Positions 15,910 to 26,962 of a DNA stretch of 43,778 nt are shown here, piece after piece; position 1 is the stretch's first letter, and every line of letters starts with the position of its first letter. Below the pieces are notes generated by a model. That model ran no database searches. It was not told where the DNA came from and saw nothing but the letters and a program-made list of their open reading frames with translations. Source of the DNA: an archaeon. GTDB taxonomy: Archaea; Nanobdellota; Nanobdellia; Woesearchaeales; GW2011-AR9. Location of the stretch: the NCBI GenBank assembly GCA_018696395.1, contig JABHQR010000008.1, positions 1-43,778 on the forward strand, written 5' to 3'. Made by a program: the position numbers and the translations under genes.

Positions 15910-16812
15910 ATGATAATCACAACTGTTGGCAATTCTGAACTCCTAGCTAAGAAAATGGCTCTTTCCTTAAAATGTAAATTTAGATTAATTAAAGTTGACA
16001 ATTTTCCAGATAAGGAATTATATTTACAATTTCAAATTAAAAAAAATGAACTTAAAGGTAAAAAAGTTATTATTGTGGGATCTTTCCAACCAGATCCTAA
16101 CTTTTCTTTACTTAAATTAATTCTTGCAGCTGAAACTGCAAAACAGTTAGGTGCAAAAAAAGTTGTTTTAATTGCACCTTATTTAGGTTTTATGAGACAA
16201 GATAAAATGTTTAATTATGGTGAAGCTGTTACTAACAAAATAATGTCAAAATTAATAAATAATTCTTTTGATAAAATTGTGACTGTTGATACTCATATCC
16301 ATAGAATTAAGTTAATGAAAGATATTTTCAAAATTTCTGCAAAAAATCTTACTGCAAATCATACTATCTCTGAATTTATCAAAAGTAAATTTAAAAATAA
16401 AGTTAAACAAAATAATATTGCAATTATAGGTCCTGATTGGGAGTCATATCAATGGGCGGAAGTTATTGCTAAGCAAGTAGGTTGTGATGTGACTGTGTTT
16501 AAGAAAACAAGGTTTAGTTCTCGGAAAGTTAGGGAGAAAATGATTAAACCTATCGAAATAAAGGGCAAAGACATTATAATTGTTGATGATATTATCTCTA
16601 CTGGTCACACTATTATTGAAGCTACAAAGAAAGTAAAAAAATTGGGGGCAAAATCAGTTACTACTATTTGTGTTCATGGTTTATTTGTCGAAGGAGCAAT
16701 TAGTAAAATTAAAAAATCTGGTGTGAAAGAAATCATTACAACAAATTCTATACAAAGAAAAGAAAGTAAAATTGATCTGTGTAAACTGTTGTGTGAAGAA
16801 ATAAAAAAATAA
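15910..16812 (+). CDS. prs: Ribose-phosphate pyrophosphokinase (PRPP synthetase)
   Basis: A 300-residue PRPP synthetase, which transfers pyrophosphate from ATP to ribose-5-phosphate. Visible marks are FPDKELYLQF, PYLGFMRQDKMFNYGEA (ATP site, residues 90-106), VDTHIHR (126-132) and the PRPP-binding loop IIIVDDIISTGHTI (222-235). The length fits the family. PRPP feeds nucleotide, His and Trp synthesis. Here it may also feed the UbiA-like phosphoribosyltransferase of the glycan locus 9.7 kb downstream. It ends one base before the convergent gene at 16814. Confidence 0.93.
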   Translation: MIITTVGNSELLAKKMALSLKCKFRLIKVDNFPDKELYLQFQIKKNELKGKKVIIVGSFQPDPNFSLLKLILAAETAKQLGAKKVVLIAPYLGFMRQDKMFNYGEAVTNKIMSKLINNSFDKIVTVDTHIHRIKLMKDIFKISAKNLTANHTISEFIKSKFKNKVKQNNIAIIGPDWESYQWAEVIAKQVGCDVTVFKKTRFSSRKVREKMIKPIEIKGKDIIIVDDIISTGHTIIEATKKVKKLGAKSVTTICVHGLFVEGAISKIKKSGVKEIITTNSIQRKESKIDLCKLLCEEIKK

Positions 16813-18380: not shown

Positions 18381-19910
18381 ATGTTATCACGTAAGAAAAT
18401 TTTATTAATTGTAATCTTATTTTTAGCTTTAGCTGTACGTTTATTTCTTGCTTTTAACACTCCAAATCTAACTTATGAATCATATTATCATTTAAGACAT
18501 ACAGAAAATATTATGGAAAATTTTTTACCTTCATTTGAAGATGATCTTTCTTATGGTGGTAGATATTTGAAATTTTTACCTTTTTTCCATTATTTTTCAG
18601 CAGCTTTAATGTTTATAATACCTTTATCTAATGAGATTGCGGCCAAGATAATTAATAACTTGTTATTTGTATTAATTGGGTTAGTAGTATATTTTACCGC
18701 TAAAAGAATTACTAAAAATGAAAATGCTGCTTTGTTTTCAACTTTAATAGCGGTTCTTTTACCAGTAAGTTATTTAACAAACTATTTTGGCCCTTTACCT
18801 TTGACCTTGTTACTATTTTTCTTATCAATGTTTTTCTTTATTAATTTTAATTCAATCTCTAAAAGAAAAGAAATGTATTGGTTTTTGATAACTTTATTTT
18901 TATTATTTTTAACCAGTTCACTTGCTGGCTTGTTAATTTTGGGGATTTTATTTTATGTTTTATTAAGTAAAATAGAAGAGAAAAGGTTAGGTACTGGTGA
19001 TTTAGAGTTAGGAATTTCAAGTTTATTGTTTTTCTTATGGTGGGAATTTATATTTTTCAAAGAAACTTTGTTAAGTTCAGGAATTAGTTTTATTTGGCAA
19101 AATATACCCTCTCAATTAATTAGTCAATATTATCCCGAATTTAACATAATCCAAACATTAATTTTAGTTGGTTTTATTCCTTTCATAGCTGGCCTTTACT
19201 TAATTTATAATTCATTATTTAAAGAAAGGAATAGGAGTATTTTATTAATCATCTGTGTAGCAATAATTAATGGTATTTTGGCCTGGTTCGAATTAATCCC
19301 TTTCTTAACAACAATGTCTTTTTTAGGGATAATATTAGCAATTTTGTTTGCTCCTTTTTATCAATCATTACTAGAATTTTATAACAAAACTAAAGTAAGT
19401 AATATTGAAGTTAAAGCTAAAAAAATCAAAAAGTTTGTTAAGTTTAACAATTATCTTAATTTAACGCTTAGCATTGTTTTGATAATTAGTTTATTAATTC
19501 CAGCTGTTATGTTTGCTTATGGCCAAGAAATTCCTTCTTCTGCAGAAGTTGAAACATTTCAATGGTTAAAAGAAAATTCTGCAGAAGGATCAGTTATATT
19601 TGGTAATGTTGAAGAGGGTAATCTAATATCTTATTACTCTGAAAGAAAAAATATTATGGATTTAGAATTTGGTATGGTTGAAGATGTTGAACAAAGGGTA
19701 GAAGATTTAAAATCATTGTACATTACTAATTTTCAAACTTTGGCAATAGGGATTGCGAATGATTATAGTGTTGATTATTTGGTACTTACCAACAGTGCAA
19801 GGGAAGAATATGATATTGATAATTTTAATTATTTAAGTGCTGGTTGTTTTGAATTATTATATAATAATGAAGAAAATAAAGTTTACAAATCAAAATGTAC
19901 TTTAAGTTAA
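18381..19910 (+). CDS. STT3/AglB-like GT-C membrane glycosyltransferase
   Basis: A 509-residue protein with some ten membrane helices up to about residue 385 and an outside C-terminal domain. After the first helix, YESYYHLRHTENI resembles the first-loop DPYYHLRxxE motif of oligosaccharyltransferases (STT3/AglB), with Glu replacing Asp. DDLSYGGRYLKFLPFFHYF also fits. In the C-terminal part, FQWLKENSAEGSVIFGNVEE and ISYYSERKNIMDLEF match the region around the OST WWDYG motif, but WWDYG itself is absent. It may transfer a sugar from a lipid carrier to protein or lipid rather than act as a standard OST. It is the first gene of a seven-gene plus-strand run. Confidence 0.75.
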   Translation: MLSRKKILLIVILFLALAVRLFLAFNTPNLTYESYYHLRHTENIMENFLPSFEDDLSYGGRYLKFLPFFHYFSAALMFIIPLSNEIAAKIINNLLFVLIGLVVYFTAKRITKNENAALFSTLIAVLLPVSYLTNYFGPLPLTLLLFFLSMFFFINFNSISKRKEMYWFLITLFLLFLTSSLAGLLILGILFYVLLSKIEEKRLGTGDLELGISSLLFFLWWEFIFFKETLLSSGISFIWQNIPSQLISQYYPEFNIIQTLILVGFIPFIAGLYLIYNSLFKERNRSILLIICVAIINGILAWFELIPFLTTMSFLGIILAILFAPFYQSLLEFYNKTKVSNIEVKAKKIKKFVKFNNYLNLTLSIVLIISLLIPAVMFAYGQEIPSSAEVETFQWLKENSAEGSVIFGNVEEGNLISYYSERKNIMDLEFGMVEDVEQRVEDLKSLYITNFQTLAIGIANDYSVDYLVLTNSAREEYDIDNFNYLSAGCFELLYNNEENKVYKSKCTLS

Positions 19911-19936
19911 ATTAAGTACACATTTAATGAAATAAA

Positions 19937-21670
19937 ATGAATAAAAATAAAGATAAAAATGATTTGAAAAAAGTATCTAATGTTAAAAAAGATAATCATA
20001 TCAGTAGTAGTAATTTGAAAAGTAACATCACTAAATCTTTAAAATATGATTGGGTTGTGTTAATGCTGATTGCATTAATTTTGTTATCTAGCGTTTTTAT
20101 CGTTAGAAATTATTCTGGTAATCCTTTACTTTACCAAGCAGAATCTTATAGCCATTTTAGTGCTGTTAAATCATATACTAATTTAGATATTCATTTTTGG
20201 GAACTTAATCCTTTAGAGATGGGGGTTTATTTGTTAAGTTTACTTGTTAATGTAAGTTTAATCAGGAATTATATTTTTCTTTTGAGTCCTTTGTTAGCGT
20301 TAGGTTCAATATTATTATTTATGAAATTTGTAGAAAATTTAAAATTAGATCGGTTTAAATCATTTATCTTTATCTTTATCTTAATTTTAACCCCCTCATT
20401 CACATTAAATTTTAGTACTTTAAGTAATTATTCTATAATTATTTTTTTAGCAAGTTTGGGGTTGTGTTTGTTATCATTAAAAAATATTTTTTGGAAGTAT
20501 TTATCAATAATTCCATTTTGTATCATTACTTTATTTGAAGGGTTGTCTACTTTCTTAATGTTAGGAGTTTTGATAGCATATTATTTTCAGTCAAACCTTT
20601 TTCCTATCATTAGAAGTAAGTTAAAAAATGATCAAAGAAATATTCGGAAGGATACTAACACTAAAAGTAATAAAATTAATAAAAATAGTCAAATTGATAA
20701 AAAATCAAATCAGGACGGAACTGTTAAAAATAAAAACCCTACTTTTTTGTCAAAAATAGTTGATGAATTGATCAGTTTTGAAGTAACTAAATTAATCATT
20801 TTTTTATTGTTGATACTTTTATTTGCTAACAAACTTTTCTTAGGAACTAATTGGGTTACTGAAAGTTTTATTTCTGATCTGTTTTTTAGTAATTTTATTT
20901 CTGATTTGGGGGCATTTTCTGGAATAAGTATTTTTGTTTTATTCTTAGCATTATTGGGTTTGTTCAGTTCATGGAAACAGAAAGGTTCTTTAATTGGATA
21001 TGTCGGTTTGACAATCTCTTTAATTAGTTATTACTTTAATAATAATGCTATTATTTTTATTGGTTTAATCATGGCATATTTTGCATCTGATTTTATTCAA
21101 TGGGTTATTGATAGGAAATGGTCACTTAATGAAGCTAAAAATTTCACATTATTACTTATATTTTTGGGATTATTATTCTCTTCAGTATCTTATGTGGAGA
21201 GATTAAGTGATTACTCACCTTACCAAGAAAATTTGGATACCATTTCTTGGTTGGAAGACTATTTTTCTAATGAAAATAATTTAACTGAAAATTCATTAGA
21301 TTATGAAACTAATGGGGTTGTTCTTCTTTCCTCACCAGAAAATTCACAATATATCTCTGCATTAAGTAGTTTTTCAACTTTTCCTGATATCTCTGATTTA
21401 GAAAATCATGACCTTGATCTTTGGCATAAAGTTAATATGCAGTTGGAACGAGATTCTTACATTGAAGGTAAAGAAGTTTTTTCATTAACATATCCCTCAG
21501 TGCTATTCCCCTTACTTGAAGAATATAATGTGAAATATATTTATGTGGATCCACAACTTAGGGTTGAATTTTATAATAAGAAAGGTTTACTTTTTGCGTT
21601 AAGAAACGAAAGGTTTAAATTAATTCATTCTCAGAATGAACATGAGATCTGGGAATTTAAAAATGAGTAA
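19937..21670 (+). CDS. Second STT3/AglB-like GT-C membrane protein
   Basis: A 577-residue protein, probably a divergent paralogue of the preceding gene product, which ends 26 bases upstream. An N-terminal basic, disordered stretch of about 30 residues leads into the first helix. The first loop then reads LYQAESYSHFSAVK, echoing the ESYYHLR motif of its neighbour. A Lys/Asn-rich insertion (about residues 232-275) splits the membrane part. The outside C-terminal domain (about 425-577) contains a region like that of the neighbour (VVLLSSPENSQYISAL, EYNVKYIYVDPQ) and again no WWDYG. It may form a complex with the first protein. Confidence 0.68.
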   Translation: MNKNKDKNDLKKVSNVKKDNHISSSNLKSNITKSLKYDWVVLMLIALILLSSVFIVRNYSGNPLLYQAESYSHFSAVKSYTNLDIHFWELNPLEMGVYLLSLLVNVSLIRNYIFLLSPLLALGSILLFMKFVENLKLDRFKSFIFIFILILTPSFTLNFSTLSNYSIIIFLASLGLCLLSLKNIFWKYLSIIPFCIITLFEGLSTFLMLGVLIAYYFQSNLFPIIRSKLKNDQRNIRKDTNTKSNKINKNSQIDKKSNQDGTVKNKNPTFLSKIVDELISFEVTKLIIFLLLILLFANKLFLGTNWVTESFISDLFFSNFISDLGAFSGISIFVLFLALLGLFSSWKQKGSLIGYVGLTISLISYYFNNNAIIFIGLIMAYFASDFIQWVIDRKWSLNEAKNFTLLLIFLGLLFSSVSYVERLSDYSPYQENLDTISWLEDYFSNENNLTENSLDYETNGVVLLSSPENSQYISALSSFSTFPDISDLENHDLDLWHKVNMQLERDSYIEGKEVFSLTYPSVLFPLLEEYNVKYIYVDPQLRVEFYNKKGLLFALRNERFKLIHSQNEHEIWEFKNE

Positions 21671-21736
21671 AAGTAAATAATCTGTATAAATAATCTGTCA
21701 TATTAAAAAGGTGGTTAAATCAAACGAGGATTTTAG

Positions 21737-23008
21737 ATGAATTTAATTGGAAACATAATCTTGTGGGTAGTGTACTTTATTTCATTATATTTTTCAATAT
21801 TCTTAGTATTAGTTTATTTTGATAATAGGGACAAAATCAAGAGTGAATCATCTAGTTTAATTCCTAAAAAAATACCAGTAGTTTCAATACTTATTCCTGC
21901 TTATAATGAAGAAAAAACAATTATTGGAACTATGGAATCAGTTATGAACATTAATTATCCTAAAAATAAACTTGATGTTATTGTCATTAATGATGGATCT
22001 AGTGATGGCACTGGGATTCAAGCTGAGAAATTTATTGAAGAACATAACCTTTCACATTTCAAACTAATTTCTCATGATAATATAGGGAAAGCAAATTCCA
22101 TGAACAAGGCATTAAAATTAGCTAAAGGGGAATTTTTTACTTGTTTAGATGCAGATTCGTTTGTAGAACCTGATACTTTAAGAAAAATGTTATCTTTTTT
22201 CTATAACCAAGATGACCCTCAACTTGCAATAGTAACTCCTGCAATGAAAGTTTTTAAACCAAAAAATGTTTTACAAAAAATTCAATGGATAGAATATTTA
22301 GTAATGATTTTTGTAGGACGGTTAAGTAGCCATTTAGACTCATTATATGTTGCTCCTGGCCCTTTTTCAATGTATCGAACTGATATCATTAGAAAAGTTG
22401 GCGGATTTGACAATTCTACTTTAACTGAAGATCAAGAAATTGCTTACCGGATGCAAAAATATAATTATCGTATCAAACAATGTTTTGATGCTTATGTTTA
22501 TACGGTTAGCCCGCATGAACTGGTACCTTTTTACAAACAAAGAAGAAGATGGTACCTTGGAAGTATTTCGTGTGCTTACAAATATAAAAATATGATTGCT
22601 AACAAGAAATATGGTGATTTTGGAATTATTCAAATGATTAAAAATGTTATTGGATATTTTTTAGCTTTAGTAGGTATTGGTTTTGCAGGATACTTTTTAC
22701 TTTATCCATTTGTATTAAAAATTAAAAATATTTGGATGATCAATTTTGATTTTTTAACTTTATTTAAAGATTATACTCTCCTTTTTGATCCTCTATTCCT
22801 TGACATTCCTAAAGTGATTGTTTTTGGTGCACTGTTCTTAACATCAGCATTCTTTTTCTATAAGGCACATCAAAATGCTAAAGAGAATGTTAATGCGATT
22901 GGTTATTTACCTATTGTACCTTATTTTGCGTTTTATTACTTATTGAAAGGGATGATCTTAATTGTTTCCTTGTACGAGTTTGGCAGAGGCAAGAAGATTA
23001 AGTGGTGA
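21737..23008 (+). CDS. Membrane GT2 glycosyltransferase (processive-synthase type)
   Basis: A 423-residue enzyme: one N-terminal helix, a GT-A catalytic domain and three or four C-terminal helices. The family 2 motifs are complete: VSILIPAYNEEKT, VINDGSSDGT (D86), LDADS (138-141), TEDQE (230-234, catalytic Asp) and QRRRW (268-272). The Q-x-x-R-W motif is typical of cellulose, hyaluronan and poly-GlcNAc synthases, which extend a glycan and pass it through the membrane. It may instead load one sugar on a lipid carrier. GAGG lies about 8 bases before the ATG. It belongs to the glycan locus. Confidence 0.88.
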   Translation: MNLIGNIILWVVYFISLYFSIFLVLVYFDNRDKIKSESSSLIPKKIPVVSILIPAYNEEKTIIGTMESVMNINYPKNKLDVIVINDGSSDGTGIQAEKFIEEHNLSHFKLISHDNIGKANSMNKALKLAKGEFFTCLDADSFVEPDTLRKMLSFFYNQDDPQLAIVTPAMKVFKPKNVLQKIQWIEYLVMIFVGRLSSHLDSLYVAPGPFSMYRTDIIRKVGGFDNSTLTEDQEIAYRMQKYNYRIKQCFDAYVYTVSPHELVPFYKQRRRWYLGSISCAYKYKNMIANKKYGDFGIIQMIKNVIGYFLALVGIGFAGYFLLYPFVLKIKNIWMINFDFLTLFKDYTLLFDPLFLDIPKVIVFGALFLTSAFFFYKAHQNAKENVNAIGYLPIVPYFAFYYLLKGMILIVSLYEFGRGKKIKW

Positions 23009-23120
23009 TAAAGAATTGGACATTTTTCTTTTATCATTGACTCTAAAATATACTCTCCACTATAACATTCTCCCCTAGAAACGAATCTTTTAAAAAGAAT
23101 TAACTCTGCGAAAGAAGAAT

Positions 23121-23885
23121 ATGGAAAAACAAAGTTCTAGATTTAGGGAAATTAGTAAAGGTAAATACATCATGGCAGGTGTTTTGACTTTCCTGATTTT
23201 TTCATTAGGGTTAACTATGGGTATAATTTTAGAAGAGATGAGATATAATGAAGCTCAAGAAATTAATGAAGAACAAGATGTAAGTTATTTAAGTTTACAA
23301 TTACAATATCTGATGTTAACTTCTTTTGAGGATCAAAGTAACTGTCCTGTCTTGTTAACTACATTACAAGATTCTATCGATGAATTGTCCGGTTCATTAT
23401 CAAAAATAATTGATTATGAAAAAGAAAATTCAATCTCTTCTGATGATTATTTATTAATTTCAAGAAGGTATACTTTAGACAATTTAAGATATTGGTTAAT
23501 GGCAGAAAAAGCAAAAGAAAGTTGTCAATTAGATATGGTTAGTATTTTATATTTTTATTCTGACGATTGTCCTTCATGCCCTAATCAAGGTACTATTCTA
23601 AGTTATTTCAAAAAATTAATGGGTGATCAATTATTAGTATTTCCTATAAATCTTGATCTTCGAGAAGATGAAGCGATGATTGAAGTAATGATGTCTTTAT
23701 ATAACGTAACAAAGTTTCCTACTATTATTGTAGAAGGGGATAAATATGAAGGGGTAATTAAGAAAAATGATTTACAAGAAATTATTTGTTCCAATCTTGA
23801 AAGTTCAGATGCTTGTGAAATTCAGTTAGAAGATTTAGAACAATTAAATGTTTCAGAACAAAATGAATCAGAATCTAGTTCGTAA
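23121..23885 (+). CDS. Membrane-anchored thioredoxin-like protein in the glycan locus
   Basis: A 254-residue protein. Residues about 17-37 are a membrane segment. A helical stalk with C75 and C135 follows, then a thioredoxin-fold domain: ILYFYSDDCPSCPN with the CPSC redox pair at 150-153, and VTKFPTIIV with the cis-proline at 200. Two more cysteines lie near the end (IICSNLES, ACEIQ). The domain should face outside the cell. In eukaryotes the OST subunits Ost3/Ost6 are membrane thioredoxin-fold proteins, so the place beside two OST-like genes is suggestive; direct homology is not shown. TTTTAAAAAG at about 23088-23097 may be its promoter. Confidence 0.8.
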   Translation: MEKQSSRFREISKGKYIMAGVLTFLIFSLGLTMGIILEEMRYNEAQEINEEQDVSYLSLQLQYLMLTSFEDQSNCPVLLTTLQDSIDELSGSLSKIIDYEKENSISSDDYLLISRRYTLDNLRYWLMAEKAKESCQLDMVSILYFYSDDCPSCPNQGTILSYFKKLMGDQLLVFPINLDLREDEAMIEVMMSLYNVTKFPTIIVEGDKYEGVIKKNDLQEIICSNLESSDACEIQLEDLEQLNVSEQNESESSS

Positions 23886-23907
23886 TAAAGAGGATAATCT
23901 AAATAAA

Positions 23908-25458
23908 ATGTCTAATAATGTTAAGACCAGTACTTTTATTAATTTTATTTTGAAAGAAAAAAGTTTAATTCTAATTTTAATATTAGCATTAATAGTTCGA
24001 ATATCTCATTTATTAAAAAATTTTCCTTTATGGTGGGATTCTTATGTTTACATTGGTATGGCCAAATATATTTACAGTTTAGGTCAAATTGGCTTGTGGG
24101 AATCGTTGAGACCACTTGTTTGGCCAGTAATATTAGGTTTTTTCTGGAAACTAAACTTTCCTTTACTTTTAACAATTAAAGTATTTGATGTCATATTTTC
24201 ATTAATTTCAATTATCCTAGTTTACAAAATCTGTGAAAAATATTTTAGTAAAATCACTGCTGATTTAGCATCATTAATATTTGCTATAACACCTCTTTAC
24301 ACTGTATTTGTAGGTTTGGCATTAACTGAACCTTTATCTTTATGTTTTGCAACATTAGCGTTATATTTTTTCTTGGATAAAAGTAAAAAATATCATTTAT
24401 ACTTTACTGGTTTATTTATTGGACTTGCATTTTTAACAAAATATCCTCTTGGAATACTTTTACCTGCATTTATTATTACCCAATTATTGAGTTCTGATTA
24501 TAATATAAATAATGTTCATGAGAAGTTTTTTAGTAAAAATAATCTTTATAACAAGATAAAACAAATCACCAAATTAACTTTATCTTTTATAATCACTATT
24601 GCCCCTTACTTAATATTAAATCAAATATTATATTCTAATATGTTAGAACCTTTCATTAAAGGAACAAGTATCATGAATACTCAAACTTGGCTTTATTCTG
24701 GGGATGTTTGGTTTTATTTTACTGAATTTATTCATGCTAATAAATTGTTTTTATTTATTTACTTTGCTTTATTAATTTTCATTTTTAAGAAACAATGGAA
24801 AGATGAGAAATATTTGATTATGGTGATCAGTTCCGCTATGATTATTGCTTACTTCTCTTTTTCAGTGGCAAGAAAAGAAGTTAGATACATGACTTTGGCA
24901 TTACCTTTTTTATCCATTTTAATTGCAGACATTGTTTATTTAGCTTATTCATATTTATCAAAATTTAGAAAAGCGATTATTAGGCCTCAAGCATTATTAT
25001 TTATTTTTACAGTTTTAATTATTTTAACTCAATTAGATGTTGCTAATAATTTAGTTTATGATCATGATTCTAGTCCTATAATTGATAATGATAATTTTGA
25101 TGGTGTTGAAGAAGTTATTGCATTAATGCAAGAAGAAAATAGGGGTGTTGGTGTATTTGCTTCCAATCCAGCATTAATGTTATGTCTAGATAAAAGAATG
25201 ATCCCTACAAGTAATATGTATGAGGCTTCTCAGATTTATTTATGGCAAGAAGAAAATTTTAATTATATCTACCTAGACAGTTGTGATTTCAGATGTCAAG
25301 ATACCGATTTTGAATGTATTAATTCCACTGAAGAATTTTATAATCTTGTAAAATTTAACAATGAATTAGTGTTTGAATCAAATAATGAACAAACTAGGCA
25401 TACTTCGACTTATGTGTATGATTATAACTGCACTATCCAAGTTTATAAGAAGTATTAA
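23908..25458 (+). CDS. PMT/ArnT-like GT-C glycosyltransferase
   Basis: Using ATG 23908 (MSNNVKTSTF..., 516 residues), 22 bases after the previous stop; the frame also has an ATG at 23848 inside the preceding gene, a less likely start. It is a dolichyl-phosphate-mannose-mannosyltransferase-like protein: about eleven helices, with WWDSYVYIGMAKYI in the first outside loop (catalytic Asp), RPLVWPVILGFFWKL, LTEPLSLCFATLALYFF and GLAFLTKYPLGILLP. The outside C-terminal tail has five or six cysteines. Such enzymes take a sugar from a lipid phosphate monosaccharide. It is well placed to use the product of the UbiA-like and PAP2 enzymes downstream. Confidence 0.83.
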   Translation: MSNNVKTSTFINFILKEKSLILILILALIVRISHLLKNFPLWWDSYVYIGMAKYIYSLGQIGLWESLRPLVWPVILGFFWKLNFPLLLTIKVFDVIFSLISIILVYKICEKYFSKITADLASLIFAITPLYTVFVGLALTEPLSLCFATLALYFFLDKSKKYHLYFTGLFIGLAFLTKYPLGILLPAFIITQLLSSDYNINNVHEKFFSKNNLYNKIKQITKLTLSFIITIAPYLILNQILYSNMLEPFIKGTSIMNTQTWLYSGDVWFYFTEFIHANKLFLFIYFALLIFIFKKQWKDEKYLIMVISSAMIIAYFSFSVARKEVRYMTLALPFLSILIADIVYLAYSYLSKFRKAIIRPQALLFIFTVLIILTQLDVANNLVYDHDSSPIIDNDNFDGVEEVIALMQEENRGVGVFASNPALMLCLDKRMIPTSNMYEASQIYLWQEENFNYIYLDSCDFRCQDTDFECINSTEEFYNLVKFNNELVFESNNEQTRHTSTYVYDYNCTIQVYKKY

Positions 25459-25590
25459 AATTTCAACTAAAAAATATGCTTCTTTTAGCATAACATTTTA
25501 ATATAACTATAATAAAGTATATTAAAATATATACTCATATAATTTAATTAAGTTTAAAAATATTGAAAAATTTAGGTAATAATTTAGAAA

Positions 25591-26469
25591 ATGATTGATA
25601 AATTAAAGGAATATATTAAATTAATTCGAGTCAGGCAGTGGTATAAGAATTTAGTTGTATTTTTAGCACTTATTTTTAGTTTTAAATTATTGTCTTCTGT
25701 TGATCTGATTAATGTTATTTTATCTTTTTTTGCAGTATCTTTTATGGCTTCTGCGTCTTATATCATTAATGATCTGAAAGATGTTGCTAAAGATAAATTA
25801 CATCCTGAGAAATGTAAAAGGCCATTAGCAAGTGGAAAAGTAAGCAAATTAGAAGGATTATTATTGTTTACACTAGTAATAACCTTATCATTAGCAATTG
25901 GGTCTCTTCTTGGAAATAATGTGTTGATATTATTGGGGTCATTTTTTGTATTGAACTTGTTATACACTTTTATGTTAAAGAAGATTATGTTTGCAGACAT
26001 ATTAGCAATTTCTTCTTTATTTGTATTGCGGGCAATTGTCGGAGCTTATGCAATCTCTTTGTCAATTTCTCCTTGGCTAATCTTATGTCCATTCTTTTTG
26101 GCATTATTTTTAGCAGTAGCAAAACGAAGATCTGACTTGATTTTACTTAAAAATAATCATGGTGAAGAACATATCAAAAGTAAAGGTATTTTAACTGGTT
26201 ATAATCTCAATATAACTAATTCTTTAATGAATATCTCTACTACTTTATTGATAATTTCTTATGCATTATACTGTTTTTTAAGTAATAAAGAAATATTGAT
26301 GTTTACTATCCCTTTTGCATTATTTGTGATATTTGATTATTATAAATTAGTATTAGAAAATTCAGAAATTGTAAGACAACCTGATAAAATAATTAAAAGT
26401 CCAAGTTTGTTAATTGGTTCATTATTATGGTTAGGTTTTACTGTTTTATTATTGTACTTGCATATTTAA
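25591..26469 (+). CDS. UbiA-family decaprenyl-phosphate phosphoribosyltransferase-like enzyme
   Basis: A 292-residue membrane enzyme with about eight helices. The motif N60-D61-x2-D64-x3-D68-x2-H71-P72-x-K74-x2-R77-P78 followed by LASG, and later MLKKIMFADILAISSLFVLR, ISPWLILCPFFLALFLAVAKRRSDL, are typical of the DPPRS branch (Rv3806c type), not of quinone or lipid-ether UbiA enzymes. That branch moves 5-phosphoribose from PRPP to a polyprenyl phosphate. AT-rich DNA before the gene (25459-25590) contains TATA-like stretches, so it may have its own promoter. A PAP2 phosphatase gene follows after 25 bases, as in the mycobacterial pair. Confidence 0.85.
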   Translation: MIDKLKEYIKLIRVRQWYKNLVVFLALIFSFKLLSSVDLINVILSFFAVSFMASASYIINDLKDVAKDKLHPEKCKRPLASGKVSKLEGLLLFTLVITLSLAIGSLLGNNVLILLGSFFVLNLLYTFMLKKIMFADILAISSLFVLRAIVGAYAISLSISPWLILCPFFLALFLAVAKRRSDLILLKNNHGEEHIKSKGILTGYNLNITNSLMNISTTLLIISYALYCFLSNKEILMFTIPFALFVIFDYYKLVLENSEIVRQPDKIIKSPSLLIGSLLWLGFTVLLLYLHI

Positions 26470-26494
26470 TGTAATTAAATGGGAACATATCAAA

Positions 26495-26962
26495 ATGAAA
26501 TTCATAAGAAAATTTATTCATCGTTTTGCACCATTAGTATTTGGTGAGGTTACTGCATTTGGTGGTTTTTTCTTTTATGGGCTTGTTCTTTTATTCACAT
26601 TAAGTATTGGTTTGTTTGATTTATTTATCTTATTATTATTTGGTTTTGTGGTTTCTGCATTGTTAACAATTCTGGTCAGAACATTTTATTTCAAAGAAAG
26701 GCCGAATAAGGTAGAATATTCTAATTATCTTGAAAAGATTGATTCTTCATCTTTCCCAAGTTTACATACTGGAAGAATATTTTATCTATCTTTTGTAATT
26801 AGTTACTTTTTCCAGAATACTTACTTGACTGCTTTGATGATTTTTTTAGCTGTGATTACTGCTTATTCCAGGGTATCTCTTAAGAGACATGATTATTATG
26901 ATTTGACTGGTGGATTTGTGTTAGCAATAGTTTGTTTTGGGTTAAGTTTAGTTATTTTTTAG
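26495..26962 (+). CDS. PAP2-type membrane phosphatase
   Basis: A 155-residue membrane protein with about five helices and the three phosphatase motifs of the PAP2 superfamily: FKERPNKVEY (Lys and Arg-Pro), SFPSLHTGR (the PSxHxG-type motif with the acid His) and SRVSLKRHDYYDLTGG (Arg, nucleophilic His, Asp). It removes phosphate from lipid-linked or membrane substrates. Coupled to the DPPRS-like gene, the likely substrate is lipid-P-ribose-5-phosphate, as proposed for Rv3807c; this is inference from context. It is the last gene of the glycan run and convergent with the MBF1-like gene. Confidence 0.87.
   Translation: MKFIRKFIHRFAPLVFGEVTAFGGFFFYGLVLLFTLSIGLFDLFILLLFGFVVSALLTILVRTFYFKERPNKVEYSNYLEKIDSSSFPSLHTGRIFYLSFVISYFFQNTYLTALMIFLAVITAYSRVSLKRHDYYDLTGGFVLAIVCFGLSLVIF

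Follow-up and report, generated by a model that had tools for sequence, protein, structure and literature searches.

A candidate lipid-P-ribose module for surface glycosylation in a DPANN archaeon

We analysed a 43,778-nucleotide stretch of DNA (hereafter the window; contig JABHQR010000008.1, C6 in our numbering) from a Woesearchaeales genome (GCA_018696395.1; 1.38 Mb, 24 contigs, 98.9%-complete), whose closest named relatives are Woesearchaeota and whose owner is a tiny, probably host-dependent archaeon. Positions 18381–26962 hold seven genes on one strand with short gaps (i.e. GTC1, GTC2, GT2, a thioredoxin-like gene, GTC3, UbiA and PAP2). We propose, with a probability of roughly 0.6, that GTC3, UbiA and PAP2 form an archaeal module of the three-component type for extracellular pentofuranose addition. 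An earlier reading of the same DNA (the original prediction) had placed these open reading frames (ORFs) correctly and had suggested a lipid-P-ribose glycosylation pathway: a UbiA enzyme of the decaprenyl-phosphate phosphoribosyltransferase (DPPRS) type and a PAP2 phosphatase do stand beside GT-C genes in a DPANN archaeon, but the extent then proposed was too broad.

The activity, sugar, acceptor, flipping and import that we infer for the module would combine as follows: (i) UbiA would transfer phosphoribose from phosphoribosyl pyrophosphate (PRPP) onto a lipid phosphate (polyprenyl or another isoprenoid); (ii) PAP2 would remove the 5-phosphate at the cytoplasmic face; (iii) the lipid-P-ribose would be flipped by a carrier encoded outside the locus; and (iv) GTC3 would attach the ribose to a glycan or glycoprotein of the cell surface that is made by the core GTC1–GTC2–GT2–thioredoxin cluster. 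The lipid phosphate would probably come from a partner cell because no cis- or trans-prenyl synthase is detectable. What the sequence itself shows is which genes are present, their families and active-site residues, their linkage, a sister genome that lacks the three genes and the want of prenyl synthases.

Judged by its sequence, the UbiA protein is DPPRS-like rather than an enzyme of quinone or ether-lipid synthesis. It scores 87 bits with Pfam UbiA and, among NCBIfam models, 206 bits with DPPRS (NF008977), 58 with the archaeal prenyltransferase as the next-best UbiA model and 37 with the GGGP geranylgeranyltransferase. Rv3806c of M. tuberculosis (8j8j) is the closest solved structure (E=9e-28), while DGGGP synthase gives 9e-7. 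The motif set named in the original prediction is present, with NDxxDxxxD and HPxKxxRP in the first cytoplasmic loop (N60, D61, D64, D68, H71, P72, K74, R77 and P78) and KRRSDL at 178–183. Nine of the 12 PRPP-contact residues of Rv3806c (PMC10994848) are retained (i.e. R22, K28, Y70, N73, D77, K87, R90, Y138 and K143), as they are in nearly all of 40 relatives. The alignment shows that Lys28 and Tyr70, which bind the 5-phosphate of PRPP in Rv3806c (PMC10994848), are missing from E. coli UbiA, CyoE and MenA. In the UbiA tree, where outgroup placement is limited by long branches, the DPPRS rows stand apart from the E. coli enzymes and from three further UbiA proteins of the order. The exception to this boundary is the pair of long-branched order members L087 and L088, which join near those outside enzymes; bacterial enzymes and Rv3806c form one clade (98/89). 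A placement of the protein among quinone or ether-lipid enzymes was looked for in scores, structures and tree, and was found in none of them.

The PAP2 protein passes the PF01569 cut-off, and its three-part motif is intact (RxxxxxxRP, PSLH and SRxxxxxHxxxD), with R replacing the K of KxxxxxxRP in motif 1. An 11-member family shares the three motifs and a distinctive E[RK]xDASSFPS stretch. Counts of Lys and Arg predict that the N-terminus and both active-site loops lie inside, a topology driven in part by the catalytic residues themselves. PAP2-type undecaprenyl-diphosphate phosphatases, which are lipid-diphosphate phosphatases, act outside the cell; the predicted loops would better fit cytoplasmic dephosphorylation of lipid-P-ribose-5-P. 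PAP2 also adjoins DPPRS in many relatives. At two other loci (L002:6397-10449 and L005), DPPRS is flanked on one side by a GT1/epimerase_2-like protein and on the other by a type I phosphodiesterase (PF01663), which is possibly an alternative phosphatase for the same intermediate.

We then surveyed 145 genomes of the order, calling DPPRS at ≥138 bits. DPPRS is present in 31 genomes, compared with 125 for the thioredoxin-like marker, and 14 of the 53 genomes whose marker score reaches 170 bits have DPPRS. GTC1–GTC2–GT2–thioredoxin thus makes up a core cluster in this order, to which DPPRS has been added. In the sister genus, genome G117 has the order GTC1–GTC2–GT2–thioredoxin–MBF–STT3, from which exactly GTC3–UbiA–PAP2 is missing between thioredoxin and MBF; in sister genome G062 the glycosyltransferase run stops after thioredoxin. 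The whole run, which the original prediction had tied to the pathway, was rejected as its extent because both sister genomes and most of the order have it but no DPPRS; of its genes, GTC3 alone tracks DPPRS. In the GTC3 tree, the DPPRS-linked proteins mostly fall in a clade of their own (10 rows including that of the window, support 100/99). Clustering by DPPRS linkage requires three label changes, as few as in only 2/500 shuffles, in a non-random sample of loci that are mostly close relatives by the window UbiA. DPPRS-linked GTC3 proteins carry WD[SAT] and most unlinked ones WDE. This clade, the motif and the joint absence in G117 make GTC3 the best pentosyltransferase candidate, and the contiguous genes GTC3–UbiA–PAP2 are, on these comparisons, the specific unit. 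Together they encode what defines a three-component system (i.e. a polyprenyl-phosphate phosphoribosyltransferase (PPPRS), a phosphatase and a GT-C enzyme). The gene order of the window locus recurs at ~12 other Woesearchaeota loci with UbiA proteins 40–53% identical, and is thus more than chance.

The same survey bears on whether the UbiA product is meant for a GT-C enzyme at all. Lipid-P-ribose, or its 5-phosphate, might instead serve another use (e.g. a modified membrane lipid), its gene lying near glycosyltransferases through a shared membrane-glycan theme. Many genomes in the order do have DPPRS away from the cluster, and the run exists without it, but the GTC3 lineage tracks DPPRS, the three genes are jointly absent in G117, and GT-C, GT2 and DUF2304 genes recur adjoining DPPRS elsewhere, so that we regard such a use as unlikely.

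Ribose is the default sugar of the proposed module, as originally expected, because the window's genome contains no DprE1-type oxidase (FAD_binding_4); DprE2-type short-chain dehydrogenase/reductase (SDR) genes were not searched genome-wide. No epimerase lies within the window cluster and no DUF362 gene was found in the genome. An unlinked epimerase (e.g. an SDR) could nevertheless turn lipid-P-ribose into lipid-P-xylose or lipid-P-arabinose, and redox genes do occur by UbiA in relatives (i.e. an SDR epimerase, an FAD oxidoreductase and EamA at L083, and DUF362 in 10 of the 31 DPPRS genomes). Given the absences just listed, a final sugar other than ribose seems quite unlikely.

The highly conserved DUF362 protein (PF04015, LarA clan) is a candidate component of the lipid-P-pentose pathway in relatives. 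Of the 145 genomes, 10 carry its orthologue and every one of these has DPPRS (P=5e-8, without correction for phylogeny); the orthologue usually adjoins DPPRS (L007:6937-8010, L016:8879-9955, L044, L047, L048, L052, L059, L062 and L065–L067); bacterial DPPRS loci with DUF362 were also found (L025, L027, L031 and L033). Archaeal DUF362 rows are 61–76% identical to the first row, compared with ~45–50% for UbiA. DUF362 and LarA belong to a common Pfam clan (PMC11770544), and the DUF362 model matches LarA-like enzymes with TM-scores of only 0.4–0.46; a sequence search of PDB gave no match. A nickel-pincer (LarA) epimerase is unlikely despite the similar fold: LarC was found in only two of the 10 DUF362-bearing genomes, which speaks against the LarA cofactor, so that other chemistry would be needed. 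A role as PAP2 substitute was rejected because both genes are adjacent in L006, L007, L008, L014, L020 and L052. At L013:9447-12098 (minus strand), an in-frame intein-like insert splits the invariant DUF362 motif HLPTVKTHGHT after HLPTVK, and a similar split occurs in genome G084 (contig C16), a hint that the active site lies at this motif. A further locus (L083:4227-8864, genome G144) has DPPRS flanked by an SDR epimerase, an FAD oxidoreductase, two EamA half-transporters and a GT2 gene, and resembles an independent archaeal counterpart of DprE1/E2 together with an SMR flippase.

The original prediction had overlooked that no prenyl-chain synthase is detectable, so that the lipid acceptor would have to come from elsewhere. 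Neither the cis-prenyltransferase PF01255 nor the trans-prenyl synthase PF00348 has a match in the window's genome, which has a single UbiA protein, while all 14 control genomes have all three families. Across the order, PF01255 is present in 119/145 genomes and PF00348 in 63/145. Within the family of the window, none of the three genomes (G000, G062 and G117) has PF01255. This lack is lineage-specific; it is not typical of DPPRS genomes, 27/31 of which have PF01255 (P=0.6), and only G000, G084 and G123 among these 31 lack both families. The window's genome also encodes STT3, another user of lipid carriers. Gaps in lipid synthesis are frequent in this part of DPANN. The missing synthases suggest that the carrier lipid is probably imported from a partner cell; Nanoarchaeum and its host are a documented case of lipid exchange (PMC7414124). 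It is also possible that a synthase gene lies in an assembly gap or is too divergent to match. A broader and rather improbable scenario is that a DPANN archaeon unable to make prenyl chains converts its partner's lipid into lipid-P-ribose for surface decoration, with DUF362 further modifying the lipid-P-pentose in relatives. It is very improbable that UbiA is an ordinary ether-lipid or quinone prenyltransferase and PAP2 a carrier-recycling lipid-diphosphate phosphatase: the fold is common to both kinds of UbiA enzyme, this UbiA is the genome's only one and PAP2 weakly matches undecaprenyl-diphosphate phosphatase models (40 bits), but the family scores, the closest solved structure, the PRPP contacts and the tree agree on DPPRS, no prenyl-diphosphate synthase is found in the genome as a feeder, and the PAP2 loops are predicted inside.

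Several observations weigh against the GTC3–UbiA–PAP2 module: (i) the UbiA score with NF008977 is below the curated cut-off of 234 bits, which appears narrow because no control genome, even C. glutamicum, has a match above it; (ii) three Rv3806c contacts are changed (Q135 to N, Y157 to F and K208 to G) and are variable in relatives too; (iii) DPPRS has no adjacent PAP2 in L003, L009, L015, L019 and L040; (iv) GTC3 relatives are found without DPPRS too; (v) the ORFs that surround the cluster include no candidate multi-TM carrier that could serve as a flippase (MATE or SMR), in a search that covered the window only; and (vi) since no prenyl synthase is detected, an acceptor made by the cell itself is not evident.

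UbiA-type phosphoribosyl transfer chemistry is proven in bacteria (PMC11127046, PMC10994848). The window locus most resembles the three-component pentofuranose systems of Citrobacter youngae O1/O2 (Kelly et al. 2024, PMC11127046), in which a UbiA-type PPPRS makes lipid-P-ribose from PRPP and acts with a phosphatase and an external GT-C enzyme. It differs in being archaeal, in having PAP2 rather than a fused HAD domain and in lacking a MATE flippase gene; GTC3 compares with the GT136 enzymes of such systems at the level of its GT-C fold. With the mycobacterial decaprenyl-P-arabinose pathway (Rv3806c, Rv3807c, DprE1/E2 and Emb/Aft) the locus shares the DPPRS active-site residues, a separate small phosphatase gene adjoining DPPRS and GT-C enzymes of the AftA/AftB fold class; unlike that pathway, it has no DprE1 and no detectable prenyl carrier synthesis of its own in the genome, and it contains no flippase gene. 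For archaeal lipid-P-ribose, only an annotation was found in the literature: haloarchaeal HLASA_2010, near an NAD-dependent epimerase gene, is annotated as a decaprenyl-phosphate phosphoribosyltransferase with no function proposed (PMC4866403). The window locus shares this DPPRS-like annotation but comes from a different lineage and gene context. Most likely, then, the system is of a kind known from bacteria, and what is new is an archaeal form that has PAP2 in place of HAD and lacks both a flippase gene at the locus and detectable carrier synthesis.

Such a form would extend to DPANN archaea a lipid-P-pentose chemistry that has so far been worked on chiefly in bacteria (e.g. the tuberculosis bacillus), and it flags DUF362 as a possible new pathway component. 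Exopolysaccharide of Sulfolobus acidocaldarius contains 26% ribose, unchanged by RNase (PMC9549778). Ribose in archaeal exopolysaccharide has no known route, and the window locus offers a concrete, testable enzyme set for this as well as for surface glycosylation by symbiotic DPANN archaea without lipid synthesis.

Table 1. Genes of the glycosylation locus and the upstream PRPP synthetase gene (window coordinates)
Feature	Position	Strand	Evidence
GTC1, STT3-like GT-C of core cluster	18381..19910	+	PMT_2 28.2 bits; archaeo_STT3 8e-12; nearly conserved [DE]SYxHLR
GTC2, GT-C-like membrane protein of core cluster, possibly inactive	19937..21670	+	TIGR03662 1e-7; acidic residue not conserved
GT2, processive-type membrane glycosyltransferase of core cluster	21737..23008	+	PF00535 102 bits; PgaC_IcaA 166 bits
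Membrane-anchored thioredoxin-like protein (CPSC), core-cluster marker	23121..23885	+	TIGR00411 3e-6; C150, P151 and C153 invariant in 12 relatives
GTC3, GT-C glycosyltransferase, candidate pentosyltransferase	23848..25458	+	PMT_2 60.8 bits; AF2 model pLDDT 83; Foldseek; DPPRS-linked clade 100/99
UbiA-family DPPRS-like enzyme, predicted polyprenyl-phosphate phosphoribosyltransferase	25591..26469	+	NF008977 206 bits; 8j8j E=9e-28; 9/12 PRPP contacts
PAP2, predicted lipid-P-ribose-5-P phosphatase	26495..26962	+	PF01569 49.6 bits; intact motifs in 11-member family; loops on positive side
PRPP synthetase, housekeeping, substrate supply	15910..16812	+	TIGR01251 225 bits (cut-off 113); not a conserved neighbour

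Among the glycosyltransferases, GTC1 and GTC3 pass Pfam PMT_2. The AF2 model of GTC3 has a GT-C fold, and its Foldseek matches (i.e. ALG12, STT3, ArnT, AglB, AftB and AftA) support use of a lipid-linked sugar while leaving the identity of that sugar unspecified. As mechanically called, GTC3 has a 38-base overlap with the thioredoxin-like gene, and its translation may in fact begin near 23911. GTC1 has its acidic SY motif nearly conserved among relatives. GTC2 has no Pfam match and only the weak TIGR03662 match, and the alignment of relatives shows that its first-loop acidic residue is not conserved. It may thus be inactive or degenerate, and the three GT-C enzymes originally counted become two firm ones and one that is likely or degenerate. 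The GT2 enzyme is of the PgaC/BcsA-like processive type with ~4 transmembrane helices and QRRRW. The PRPP synthetase gene noted upstream is real, but its link to the locus is not conserved: it is not beside the cluster in the relatives examined and was rejected as part of the locus.

The conserved thioredoxin-like gene was not listed in the original prediction; a membrane thioredoxin amid glycosyltransferases resembles OST3/OST6 of oligosaccharyltransferase. Elsewhere, L003:9490-12867 encodes an STT3 oligosaccharyltransferase fused with a PpiC-type prolyl isomerase domain (1125 aa), and related genes (L011, L019, L024 and L074) lie near the glycosyltransferase cluster in several Woesearchaeota. 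A serpin gene (406 bits) lies near the cluster at L081:11036-12292 in genome G050 of the same order.

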